Source: Acidimicrobiia bacterium (lineage in GTDB: Bacteria > Acidobacteriota > Vicinamibacteria > Vicinamibacterales > UBA2999). From it: a stretch of DNA of 41,157 nucleotides. Below the pieces are notes generated by a model. The model was not told where the DNA came from, made no database searches, and saw only the letters and a list, made by a program, of their open reading frames with translations. The stretch lies in assembly GCA_016871275.1 (NCBI GenBank), contig VFZG01000034.1:1-41157 (forward strand). Reading direction: 5' to 3'. Position 1 is the stretch's first letter, and the number at the start of each line of letters is the position of its first letter. Positions 38,224 through 41,157 of this stretch are shown one piece after another. Both the position numbers and the translations under genes were made by a program.

Positions 38224-38226
38224 TTA
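38206..38226. repeat. Short heptamer array at the TerB-like gene end
   Basis: Units AGTTGGC, AGTTACC, AGTTTTA. The last unit includes the gene's stop codon (TAA, 38226-38224). Confidence 0.5.
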
Positions 38227-38742
38227 CGGGCGTGACAGGCCGGGGAGGAAGCGGCGGTGCTGCAGCCGGAGCGCCATCAGGTCCGGGCCCTCGATGCGCA
38301 GGTGATTGGTGATCTTGTGCAGCTCGCCCTCTTCCGCGATCGAGATCCGTTCGTCGGCGGCCGCAACTGCGAACATGCACCTCGCCAGCGCCACCCGCTG
38401 CACGTAGGTCGCCGAGTCGGTGAACTCCTGCGTCACCACGAAGTCCGCCGACAATCCAAACATCAGGCTGCTGGTCTTGGCGAGGCTGACGACCAGCATC
38501 GCCTGCGCGGCGGTGAGGTCGCCATGTTCCACGAGCAGCGACTCCATCGCCGTCGTCTCCGCATCGCTGATGTGTTCGTCGGCGCGAGCCACACGCCCGA
38601 GCAGGTAGGCGAATCGCGCCAGATACTGCGCACGAGCAGGCTCCAGCCGATCGAGCGCGTCGACCAGCGATCGCAGCGGCGCCGGGTCGTTCGCCGGCGT
38701 GGTGTCGGCGAGTCCCAGCCATCCATGGAGCGACTTCAACAT
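38224..38742 (-). CDS. TerB-family protein
   Basis: A 172-residue all-helical cytoplasmic protein. It shows the twofold TerB/TerB-like pattern: ARADEHISDAETTAMESLL in the first half and AVAAADERISIAEEGELHK in the second, each with an acidic D-x-x-I-S-x-x-E helix start that binds metal in TerB. In tellurite-resistance operons TerB works with TerC and TerD; none are nearby, so this is probably a stand-alone stress-associated family member. -10 box GATAAT (38754-38749) ends 6 bases before ATG 38742. Confidence 0.82.
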   Translation of the reverse strand: MLKSLHGWLGLADTTPANDPAPLRSLVDALDRLEPARAQYLARFAYLLGRVARADEHISDAETTAMESLLVEHGDLTAAQAMLVVSLAKTSSLMFGLSADFVVTQEFTDSATYVQRVALARCMFAVAAADERISIAEEGELHKITNHLRIEGPDLMALRLQHRRFLPGLSRP

Positions 38743-38864
38743 CCAGCCATTATCGCGCTGGTAGCCGTCGATCCGCGCATCGACGCTTGGATCGAAGTCG
38801 GGAGGGTAGCAAGAACTGCAACAAAAACGGCTATGTGGGGGTCAGTCCCCGTTACAACATCCGG

Positions 38865-38870
38865 TATACT
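38865..38870 (+). promoter_or_regulatory. -10 box of the asd leader transcript
   Basis: TATACT followed by GTTGCCC and GTG 38878. Box type and 7-base spacing are the same as at 11760 and 30005, so the leader RNA should start at or next to 38877. A GGGG-x-CAGT-CCCC palindrome lies 16 bp upstream where the -35 box would be. Confidence 0.6.
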
Positions 38871-38877
38871 GTTGCCC

Positions 38878-38952
38878 GTGACGATCATCCGAAAGCGGAT
38901 GCCTAAGCGGGCCATGCTGAAGAAAGCTGGCGCGGGAGGCGTTCGTCTGTAG
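38878..38952 (+). CDS. Putative 24-residue leader peptide
   Basis: GTG 38878 opens a 24-codon frame, MTIIRKRMPKRAMLKK then AGAGGVRL and TAG. It lies exactly at the predicted transcription start, as leaderless genes here do. Nine of the 23 residues after the start are from the aspartate family (1 Thr, 2 Ile, 2 Met, 4 Lys), whose pathway asd and lysC feed; five are Arg. This is suggestive of translational attenuation but the peptide is short and the composition could be chance in a basic peptide. Confidence 0.4.
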   Translation: MTIIRKRMPKRAMLKKAGAGGVRL

Positions 38953-38987
38953 GAACTCGTGAGCAGGAGTTTCGAGATCGACCAGCC

Positions 38988-39024
38988 ACCCGCCGCGGTT
39001 CACCGCCTGGCGGGTTTTTTGTTT
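38988..39024 (+). terminator. Intrinsic terminator upstream of asd
   Basis: ACCCGCC-GCGG, loop TTCA, CCGC, bulge CT, GGCGGGT: an 11-bp stem with one 2-base bulge, followed by a run of T (39015-39020, then GTTT). One of the strongest terminators in the window, located inside the asd leader. Confidence 0.88.
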
Positions 39025-39025
39025 C

Positions 39026-39065
39026 AGGCTAGCAGGCCAGCGGGCTAGCAGGTCAGCAGGAGAGT
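39026..39065. repeat. Octamer array carrying the asd Shine-Dalgarno site
   Basis: Units AGGCTAGC, AGGCCAGC, GGGCTAGC, AGGTCAGC, AGGAGAGT. The fifth unit has become the ribosome-binding site of asd. Confidence 0.85.
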
Positions 39066-39068
39066 GAC

Positions 39069-40109
39069 GTGGATTCGATAGAGGTCGGCGTACTGGGTGC
39101 GACCGGGATGGTGGGACAGCAGTTCGTCTCGCGTCTCGCGCGCCATCCGTGGTTTCGGTGCACGTGGCTGGCCGCAAGCGAGCGGTCGGAAGGCAAAGCC
39201 TACAAATCCGTGGCGCCATGGAAGCTGAGCACGCCGATTCCAGACGGCGCCGGCGATCGCATCGTCGACGGCTGCGTACCGGGCCGCGGCCCCAGAGTGG
39301 TGTTCTCGGGTCTCGATGCGTCGGTCGCCGGTGATGTTGAGCGCGCCTTCGCCGAGGCCGGGCACATTGTGATCAGCAACGCCCGCAACTTCCGGATGGA
39401 CCCGGTGGTGCCGCTGCTGATTCCCGAGGTCAACGCCGATCACCTGCGCCTGCTCGACGAGCAGCGCCGCACCAAGGGCTGGAAGGGCGCAATCGTCACC
39501 AACCCGAACTGTTCGACCATCGTGCTCGCCATGGCGTTGGCGCCGCTGCGCCAGTTCAACATCAGGTCGGTGATCGTGTCGACCATGCAGGCGGTGTCGG
39601 GGGCGGGGTACCCCGGCGTCCCTTCGCTCGACATCCTCGGCAACGTGGTGCCGTTCATCGGCAACGAAGAAGAGAAGATGCAGACGGAAACGCTGAAGAT
39701 CCTCGGCGCCGATGGCGGGCGCACGCCGTATCCGGCCGTGGTCAGCGCCCACACCAATCGCGTGCCGGTGATTGACGGCCACACCATGACGGTATCGGCC
39801 GGCTTCGATCGGCAGCCGTCAATCGCCGCGATTGCCGACGCCATGCGCACCTTCGCCGGACGCCCGCAGGAACTGCGGCTGCCCAGTGCTCCGCAGCCGC
39901 CGATTGTCGTCACCGAAGAACCCAATCGGCCGCAACCTCGACTGGACGCCGACCTTGGCGGCGGCATGGCCGTAACGGTCGGCCGCCTGCGTGAATGTCC
40001 CGTGCTGCACGCCAAGTTCGTCGCGCTGGGACACAATACGATTCGCGGTGCAGCCGGCGCGGCAATTCTCAATGCCGAGCTGATGCACGCCGAGGGCATG
40101 CTTTTGTAG
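39069..40109 (+). CDS. asd: Aspartate-semialdehyde dehydrogenase
   Basis: A 346-residue enzyme reducing aspartyl phosphate to aspartate semialdehyde with NADPH, the branch-point step to lysine, threonine, methionine and isoleucine. The N-terminal motif GATGMVGQ is at residues 10-17; the catalytic cysteine is in TNPNCSTI; the substrate arm VVSAHTNRVPVIDGH and the C-terminal segment follow. Features such as LIPEVNADHL place it with the archaeal/fungal-type Asd subfamily rather than the E. coli type. GTG start with Shine-Dalgarno AGGAG (39058-39062), matching a message with a long leader. lysC follows after 65 bases and is probably in the same operon. Confidence 0.95.
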   Translation: MDSIEVGVLGATGMVGQQFVSRLARHPWFRCTWLAASERSEGKAYKSVAPWKLSTPIPDGAGDRIVDGCVPGRGPRVVFSGLDASVAGDVERAFAEAGHIVISNARNFRMDPVVPLLIPEVNADHLRLLDEQRRTKGWKGAIVTNPNCSTIVLAMALAPLRQFNIRSVIVSTMQAVSGAGYPGVPSLDILGNVVPFIGNEEEKMQTETLKILGADGGRTPYPAVVSAHTNRVPVIDGHTMTVSAGFDRQPSIAAIADAMRTFAGRPQELRLPSAPQPPIVVTEEPNRPQPRLDADLGGGMAVTVGRLRECPVLHAKFVALGHNTIRGAAGAAILNAELMHAEGMLL

Positions 40110-40174: not shown

Positions 40175-41157
40175 ATGAAGGTGATGAAGTTCGGTGGGAC
40201 GTCGGTGGCCGACCAGGCCGCGATCGAACGGTTGATCGCGCTGGTTCGCGCCGAGCGCCAGGCCCAAGCACAAACCGAAGGCGGCGATGCGCGCGGGCCG
40301 GTCGTCGTGGTATCGGCGCTCTCCGGCGTCACCGATCGCCTGCTGGGACTCGCCGCCTTGTCGGGATCCGGCGACGTAGAAGGCGCGCGCGCCAGCCTCC
40401 AGGATCTGCGAGCCCGGCACATCAAGGTGTCGGGAGTCATCGCGGACGCGTCGCTTCGCAAGCCGGTGGTGGATGCGCTGAACGCGGAGTGCGATGCGCT
40501 CGAGCGGGTGGTGTCGGCGCTGGCCGTGCTGCAGGAAGTCTCCCCTCGATGGCTGGATGCGCTCGCCGCGGTGGGCGAGATCCTGAGCAGCCAGATCGTG
40601 GCGGCCGCGCTCAGCTCGCACAAGCTCCTGGCCACCTTCGTCGATTCCCGCCAGGCCGTCGTCACCAACGACGAGCACACCGCCGCGGCGCCCCTGTTCG
40701 AGGAGACGACAGCGGCACTGATGACGCATGCCGATCCGCCGCTGGCCGCCGGACGCATGGTCGTGATGGGCGGCTTCGTGGGGGCGACCACGTCGGGCGT
40801 CACGACCACGCTGGGTCGCGGCGGTTCGGACTTTTCGGCGGCGATCGTGGGCGCCTGCCTCGGCGCCTCCGAAATTCAAATCTGGACCGATGTGGACGGC
40901 ATGCTCACGGCCGATCCGCGTATCGTCAACAACCCGCAAGTGGTGCCGCACCTGTCGTTTGCTGAGGCATCGGAACTGGCGTACTTCGGCGCCAAGGTGC
41001 TGCACCCGGCGACGATTCAGCCGGCCGTCACCCGCAACATTCCGGTTCGCATCCTGAATTCGCACCGTGCCAGCGCGCGCGGCACGCTGATAACCGCCGA
41101 GCGCCCGAAGGCGGCGCCGCTGACCGCGGTCGCGTCGAAGAAGGGCGTCACCGTGGT
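40175..41157 (+). CDS. lysC: Aspartate kinase, partial (cut by window end)
   Basis: The first 327 codons of an aspartokinase, which phosphorylates aspartate as the first step of the aspartate family pathway. The start MKVMKFGGTSVADQAAIERL holds the KFGGTSV signature; further kinase motifs are VVVVSALSGVTDRLL, TTLGRGGSDFSAAIVG, WTDVDGMLTADPRIV and SYAEA-like SFAEASELAYFGAKVLHP. The visible part ends as the ACT-domain region begins (GVTV), so feedback type and any fusion to homoserine dehydrogenase (ThrA-like) cannot be seen. No own promoter or Shine-Dalgarno site is evident; likely translated from the asd message. Confidence 0.93.
   Translation, partial: MKVMKFGGTSVADQAAIERLIALVRAERQAQAQTEGGDARGPVVVVSALSGVTDRLLGLAALSGSGDVEGARASLQDLRARHIKVSGVIADASLRKPVVDALNAECDALERVVSALAVLQEVSPRWLDALAAVGEILSSQIVAAALSSHKLLATFVDSRQAVVTNDEHTAAAPLFEETTAALMTHADPPLAAGRMVVMGGFVGATTSGVTTTLGRGGSDFSAAIVGACLGASEIQIWTDVDGMLTADPRIVNNPQVVPHLSFAEASELAYFGAKVLHPATIQPAVTRNIPVRILNSHRASARGTLITAERPKAAPLTAVASKKGVTV

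Follow-up and report, generated by a model that had tools for sequence, protein, structure and literature searches.

How is the asd-lysC pair controlled that closes a 41,157-base contig of a Vicinamibacteria genome (VFZG01000034.1, whose whole analysed length we call the window)? The window ends with asd (39069–40109) followed by lysC (from 40175), and in the closest relative dapB-dapA-dapD continue downstream of lysC. A short leader precedes asd, and an account made from the letters alone (the sequence-only reading) had described it as attenuator-like. With a probability of roughly 0.85, we consider this leader to be a ribosome-mediated transcription attenuator of the lysine operon, which is asd-lysC here and includes dapB-dapA-dapD in relatives. 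Judging from its codons, the attenuator would respond to lysine (Lys) and probably also to threonine (Thr), another product of the shared trunk. Computation across relatives revealed conserved parts, a codon bias in the leader, co-variation of its pairing arms and control codons that follow the content of the operon.

Direct reading recovered the elements as previously reported: TATACT at 38865–38870, a 24-codon open reading frame (ORF) from GTG 38878, nine aspartate-family residues among 23 non-start residues (T, I, I, K, M, K, M, K, K), and a terminator about 45 nucleotides (nt) upstream of the asd GTG at 39069. The parts of the locus are as follows.

38865–38870, plus strand: −10 box TATACT, by direct reading; transcript start predicted at 38877–38878.
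38878–38952, plus strand: leader ORF of 24 codons, VTIIRKRMPKRAMLKKAGAGGVRL, with GTG start at 38878 and stop codon TAG at 38950–38952.
38890–38898, plus strand: CGA-AAG-CGG motif (Arg5-Lys6-Arg7), the first control codon with CGA before it, from codon counts in the leader set.
38905–38907, plus strand: second control Lys codon AAG, Lys10 (CTAAGCGGGCC); AAGCG is invariant here in 12 aligned leaders.
38920–38925, plus strand: Lys15-Lys16 codons, from the codon table and alignment; not conserved among aligned relatives.
38925–38936, plus strand: segment 2, the putative antiterminator strand AGCTGGCGCGGG, from its duplex with 38989–39000 (−15.9 kcal/mol) and from co-variation between clades.
38952–38973, plus strand: extra hairpin GGAACTC/GAGTTTC in the gap between ORF and terminator, from the centroid structure.
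38988–39020, plus strand: intrinsic terminator, CCCGCCGCGG (segment 3) and GGCGGG (segment 4) followed by T6, from fold and conservation; hairpin at 38988–39015 and T tract at 39015–39020.
39058–39062, plus strand: Shine-Dalgarno sequence AGGAG of asd, by eye.
39069–40109, plus strand: asd (aspartate-semialdehyde dehydrogenase), PF01118 and PF02774 above cut-off.
40175–41157, plus strand: lysC (aspartokinase), cut by the contig end, found by tblastn with LysC of the closest relative.

From these parts we infer the transcript start, translation, stalling and antitermination in the following way. RNA polymerase would start at or beside the start codon, and a ribosome would load directly on the 5′ end of the RNA and translate the short ORF. 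When Lys-tRNA (probably also Thr-tRNA) is scarce, the ribosome would stall at the CGA-AAG codons and leave the final ten or so codons free to pair with the 5′ arm of the terminator, letting the polymerase read into asd. When Lys is plentiful, the ribosome would reach the stop codon and cover part of the pairing stretch, and the terminator would form.

We looked for the same layout, that is, a −10 box, a short basic ORF a few nt further on, an intrinsic terminator and then the gene, in relatives. In a first sample, 40 relatives yielded 22 Asd loci of near full length, and 16 of these show it by eye (all except L006, L007, L011, L015, L016 and L021). A named-genome search returned 80 loci; 11 repeated records of the first sample, three had asd at the edge of a contig, and the other 66 were added. 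The leader was present in 24 of these 66; in some of the remaining 42, many of which are Bryobacterales or other phyla by record label, asd lies behind another gene. Assignment to Vicinamibacteria also comes from record labels (for example L043), and the leader-bearing L031 and L085 are labelled Cyanobacteria and Terriglobia. We retained 39 unique asd leaders, with ORFs of 21–39 codons at the equivalent place, and a wider set of 63 unique leaders upstream of asd, lysC or dapB, comprising 60 of a Lys type and three of a methionine (Met) type; L054 lies outside the 39 and enters the 63 as L260. Start codons were set by eye. Because the automatic finder required an ORF, a −10-like hexamer 4–13 nt upstream and a terminator, these three features are partly there by construction in the kept leaders, and shuffle controls were therefore used. 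A filter for KR-like peptides was applied to the automatically kept leaders as well; in the unfiltered listing no locus had been dropped for lacking Lys except L007, whose ORF was judged spurious.

Of the 63, 22 (21 from a search of the class, and L111) came from a pattern free of any terminator, TATACT-N5-13-RTG-N9-39-CGAAAGCG. This pattern occurs in 44 of the 193 class genomes (3 of 193 when reversed), and its single match in the source genome is the leader of the window. Asd, lysC or dapB follows in 23 of the 26 newly fetched pattern loci, and the other three are without such a gene. Matches in G144 and on contig C70 of G107 lie outside the inspected set. Outside the class the pattern occurs in 12 of 350 genomes and its reverse in 15 of 350, and with the pattern at this control level we rejected a spread to other classes of the phylum. 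L282 (G130) and the pattern matches in G019, G145 and G189 are tRNA-Ser-like (GGTGAGGTGGCTGAGTGGCCGAAAGCG) and were taken by eye as chance matches.

All 63 unique leaders have a terminator (shuffles, 56 of 630), among them all 22 from the terminator-free pattern, and the terminator hairpins of the 39 asd leaders range from −13 to −29 kcal/mol. A TA-type −10 box ends 6–13 nt upstream of the ORF start in 34 of the 39, partly a selection criterion; an exact TATACT or TATAAT at this distance occurs in 26, against 1 of 1950 shuffles, and a −35 box agreeing with TTGACA at five or six positions in 13, against 23 of 1950 shuffles. Only one of the 39 has a Shine-Dalgarno-like string before the start, and in the window such a string would not fit if transcription starts at 38877–38878 as predicted. 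The leader ORF is thus probably leaderless, with a transcript start predicted from the promoter spacing at, or within a few nt of, the start codon. The leader is conserved within the class; conserved terminator, ORF and start spacing, together with the clade co-variation and operon-following codons described below, bear out its attenuator-like character.

In the 39 asd leaders Lys makes up 8.9% of residues, compared with 2.5% in Asd and 3.3% in shuffled ORFs (z 12.5). Thr reaches 11.0% (Asd 4.5%, shuffles 5.9%, z 8.0) and Met 3.4% (Asd 2.5%, shuffles 1.3%, z 6.4), and asparagine lies below the shuffles. The leader ORF is thus short and enriched in codons for the operon's amino acid, as in an attenuator. 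The aspartate-family enrichment that had been pointed out in the window is there, and these counts narrow it to Lys in the main, together with Thr. The peptides have zones: Thr is commonest N-terminally, an arginine (Arg)/Lys core often reads R-K-(R/C/H)-x-x-(R)-K-R, and Ala, Gly and Val occupy the pairing part. The codon CGA precedes 42 of 94 Lys codons in the 39 leaders, which were not chosen by the pattern, whereas it is rare in Asd genes (45 of 870 Arg codons), where Lys follows it in none of the 45 cases. AAG follows 76 of 95 CGA codons in the 60 Lys-type leaders, a count inflated by the 22 pattern-found leaders, which were selected for CGAAAGCG; Met leaders have ATG after CGA (3/3).

The control codons change with the genes behind them. 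Among 14 leader loci with longer flanks, ten carry asd-lysC-dapB-dapA-dapD, three asd-dapB-dapA without an adjoining lysC (two with dapD, the third cut off) and one methionine genes; in other families the leader stands before lysC-dapB-dapA-dapD (L289–L292). The next gene found is lysC or dapB behind 38 of the 39 asd leaders, all 38 of which contain Lys, as do all 60 leaders preceding lysine-operon genes. The 39th, in G027, has no Lys and six internal Met codons, and precedes asd-hom-metY-metX. Two further leaders, MPARLHTTPAAAMRMMAMRMTSIGGGAVAGP in G119 (asd-lysC-hom-metX) and MARPTDSTPAAAMRMMAMRMTGIGGGAVSGP in G121 (asd-lysC-hom-metY-metX), have no Lys, five internal Met and CGA followed by ATG. 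In the stretches fetched behind the G027, G119 and G121 leaders, dapB, dapA and dapD were not found. A fourth leader, MATRLGFPRPAMMVMRMLVMRMTSVGGRIVSGL in G039, which lies outside the 63, stands directly before metY with no asd between, and the window-type Asd was not found in this genome. All four thus lack Lys, have five or six internal Met and carry CGA-ATG in place of CGA-AAG, while Lys-type leaders have two internal Met at most. A Met-leader pattern searched in the 193 class genomes matched with 0–1 mismatch only in these four; at 2–3 mismatches it matched 20 more, which we take as chance (reversed control, 5 genomes). A codon switch that follows operon content is a natural test of what attenuators sense.

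In the asd-hom gap of G027 (L252) there is a short lysC-like match of 168 bases (E 1e-7, about 1732–1899 of the reversed stretch), which may be a lysC remnant. In G032 dapB-dapA lie on another contig than asd-lysC and are preceded by a separate leader, MCFCAINKRKRSPHGGMAVLCA, which contains two Lys but lacks Thr; the asd-lysC leader of the same genome has seven Thr and one Lys. Among 30 fetched dapB loci only G032 shows such an own leader, and G030 and G028 show the asd leader upstream. The same leader was also sought before leuA and hom with the strict finder, in 30 + 30 fetched loci (not all matches), and rejected there; two hom candidates, L158 and L163, lack the motif.

The prominence of CGA raises the question whether the leader could be a general translation-speed or arginine sensor in which CGA or other Arg codons, and not Lys, are sensed. 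Arg forms 16.8% of the residues of the 39 leaders, the frequency of CGA before Lys stands out against its rarity in Asd, and a bacterial his-leader assay places CGA with the slow Arg codons (PMC4046918). The Arg content, however, is at the base-composition level (16.6% in shuffled ORFs), the operons serve Lys or Met but not Arg, and it is the codon after CGA that changes with the operon while CGA stays. We therefore regard an Arg or speed sensor as improbable. Within a Lys attenuator the role of CGA is a guess: a slow CGA, decoded immediately before the control codon reaches the A site, might lengthen the stall.

The second part of the proposed attenuator is the choice between two pairings. 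The end of the ORF is able to pair with the 5′ arm of the terminator, and the arm varies by clade (CCCGCCGCGG, CCCGCTGATGCG, CCCGCCAGCG, GCCGACACGG, CCCGCCGACG and others), the ORF segment varying alongside. In the 39 leaders each segment pairs with its own arm at −18.1 kcal/mol, compared with −15.4 (standard deviation 0.37) for permuted pairs, none of 5000 permutations being as good. When nine arm classes were permuted as classes, 5 of 362,880 permutations were as good, and shuffled segments gave −14.5 kcal/mol. The 63 leaders gave −19.7 for own and −16.7 kcal/mol for swapped pairs (0 of 10,000 as good). The pairing segment begins a median of 25 nt past the first control codon and 32 nt before the ORF end. 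A ribosome stalled at that first codon would leave the segment exposed, and one that has reached the stop codon would mask part of it. When the 39 leaders were folded with a ribosome placed on them, the 5′ arm paired upstream with a mean probability of 0.72 for a ribosome at the first Lys and 0.70 at the last KR (0.55 and 0.51 with shuffled upstream sequence), and of 0.21 for one at the stop codon (0.31 shuffled). In computation, then, a stall at the control codons would free an antiterminator that excludes the terminator, with the equilibrium still favouring the latter.

Several observations weigh against the attenuator or parts of it. For the leaderless part, which the sequence-only reading had put forward and which the spacing in most relatives supports, the exceptions are L013, L014, L057 and L058, which are without a good −10 box near the start and may have short 5′ untranslated regions, and L046, whose −10 box is at 15 nt. 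Losses have occurred in some close relatives that keep the same operon, of the whole leader in G002 and of its ORF in G004. Eight of the 60 Lys-type leaders have a single Lys codon, and phenylalanine exceeds the shuffles in the 39 leaders (2.4% versus 1.1%). All four Met leaders come from a single family, so the Met switch may be a single event. Segment 2 of the window pairs no better with its own arm (−15.9 kcal/mol) than with arms of other clades (−15.7), and some other leaders behave alike, so that the co-variation signal belongs to the set. From the last control codon to the pairing segment the median distance is 10 nt, and in Met leaders it is only 4–5 nt (counted from CGA-ATG); a ribosome stalled at that codon would overlap the segment, and the first control codon fits better. 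The mean equilibrium probability of the terminator is 0.64 with the ribosome at the first Lys, 0.80 at the last KR, 0.93 at the stop codon and 0.86 without a ribosome, so the antitermination choice would have to be kinetic, made during transcription. Finally, the ribosome-free RNA also pairs the 5′ arm upstream (mean 0.56), and a separate protector hairpin is therefore not established.

The G004 locus (L007/L253) keeps the same operon with the leader ORF gone, TATAAT being followed by a terminator hairpin within about 10 nt, as if the sensing part had been excised naturally. In G002 (L006/L254), asd-lysC-dapB-dapA-dapD has neither leader nor terminator, and short CCCGTCAAGAAGTGCGG-type repeats lie upstream. 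In family f1 (G009–G024), 14 of 16 genomes have no close relative of the window Asd, showing distant matches or none, and 12 of these genomes were among the dapB loci scanned, where no leader was found.

The strong terminator between ORF and asd could also mean that the ORF encodes a small basic protein acting in trans, for example by binding nucleic acid, on an mRNA of its own, with an asd promoter after 39024. The strong basicity of the peptides and their conserved R-K-R core would suit such a protein, and a leader peptide of Sinorhizobium meliloti, peTrpL, is reported to act in trans (PMC7298713). Against such a protein speak the variable ORF length (21–39 codons), the replacement of the R-K-R core in Met leaders, the co-variation of the 3′ third of the ORF with the terminator arm, and the downstream genes of the lysine or methionine pathway, which define the asd set and also occur at 23 of 26 loci found by the pattern only; we give this explanation slightly less weight than the Arg sensor. 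Least likely is a riboswitch-like RNA that binds a ligand or protein, with the ORF incidental: CGAAAGCGG is conserved at the nucleotide level with CGA used over commoner Arg codons, and a terminator with an alternative pairing is present, but Rfam gave no match, and the change from AAG to ATG with a methionine operon is predicted by codon reading and not by an aptamer.

The Rfam search covered 4227 families, including the lysine riboswitch, the Thr leader and T-box, and the window leader had no match at the gathering threshold or at E ≤ 5; the leaders at 18 loci of relatives had no match either. A riboswitch or known leader family was rejected on this ground. We also rejected by eye a GNRA-hairpin reading of CGAAAG, because the flanking bases are unpaired in many leaders.

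The trp, his, thr and ilv attenuators of gamma-proteobacteria likewise combine a short control-codon ORF with a choice between antiterminator and terminator ahead of biosynthetic genes. They differ from the leader described here, which uses mainly Lys (or Met) codons, often after CGA, has no Shine-Dalgarno sequence, belongs to another phylum and matches no Rfam leader. The Thr/Ile-rich leaders L013 and L014 presumably resemble the E. coli thr leader. In other phyla the lysine riboswitch (L-box) controls genes of the lysC/asd type; the present leader has no Rfam match to it, and its proposed sensing element is an ORF, not an aptamer. A 2005 survey of Actinobacteria mentions L-box riboswitches for lysine and states that no conserved RNA structures were found upstream of lysine, threonine or methionine operons (PMC1262725).

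The earlier remark that a leaderless attenuator would be unusual holds only in part. S. meliloti trpL is a leaderless leader ORF (PMC7298713, PMC10117765), the transcript of Corynebacterium glutamicum ilvB is leaderless with its start site one nucleotide from the start codon (PMC11857589), and mycobacterial polycysteine ORFs are reported as leaderless cysteine attenuators in a title cited by PMC13236596, which describes the cysteine genes as under translation attenuation. Those systems use Trp, branched-chain or Cys codons and control other operons. S. meliloti SEP5 carries six Thr and three Lys codons and lies in the 5′ untranslated region of a gene that the paper names "aspartate dehydrogenase"; this small ORF is suggested to be a leader peptide and is described as conserved only in Sinorhizobium (PMC10117765). 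No description of the leader element was found among the listed matches in open-licence literature on Acidobacteria/Vicinamibacter and on lysine- or methionine-codon attenuators. Leaderless attenuators being already known elsewhere, what appears to be new here is the variant and not the type of regulator.

A broader proposal can be made only tentatively, and we think it somewhat more apt to fail than to hold: the leaders may form a lineage-specific Vicinamibacteria class of leaderless attenuators whose sensing unit is CGA plus a control codon. CGA in the P site would slow or destabilise the ribosome, so that even one or two control codons would suffice for a sharp response, and specificity would follow the operon through a change of the second codon, AAG with lysine and ATG with methionine. 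The position of CGA before the control codon makes such codon-context amplification directly testable.

Around the leader, the divergent intergenic region spans 38743–39068, and the upstream neighbour is a TerB-like gene on the minus strand (38224–38742). The RNA of 38878–39068 folds at −79.3 kcal/mol (z = −2.2; 5 of 200 shuffles equal or better), and the terminator hairpin alone at −19.2 kcal/mol. A simple scan for promoters and terminators reported nothing at the leader, a weak point, probably because its rules bar an interrupted stem and the −35 box is poor (GTCAGT, two of six consensus matches); the leader rises above chance because of its conservation in relatives. At the equivalent of 38952–38973, congeners have by eye a hairpin of other sequence, of the TTCTGAAC/GTTCAGAA type, and the gap between ORF and terminator is just 21–32 nt in several distant leaders. 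Immediately 5′ of the −10 box lies a palindrome, GGGGG-TCAGT-CCCC (38837–38850), possibly an operator or a chance occurrence; inspection by eye did not show it in the closest relative (L002). At the other end of the window, a tRNA gene occupies positions 13–98 on the minus strand (Rfam RF00005).
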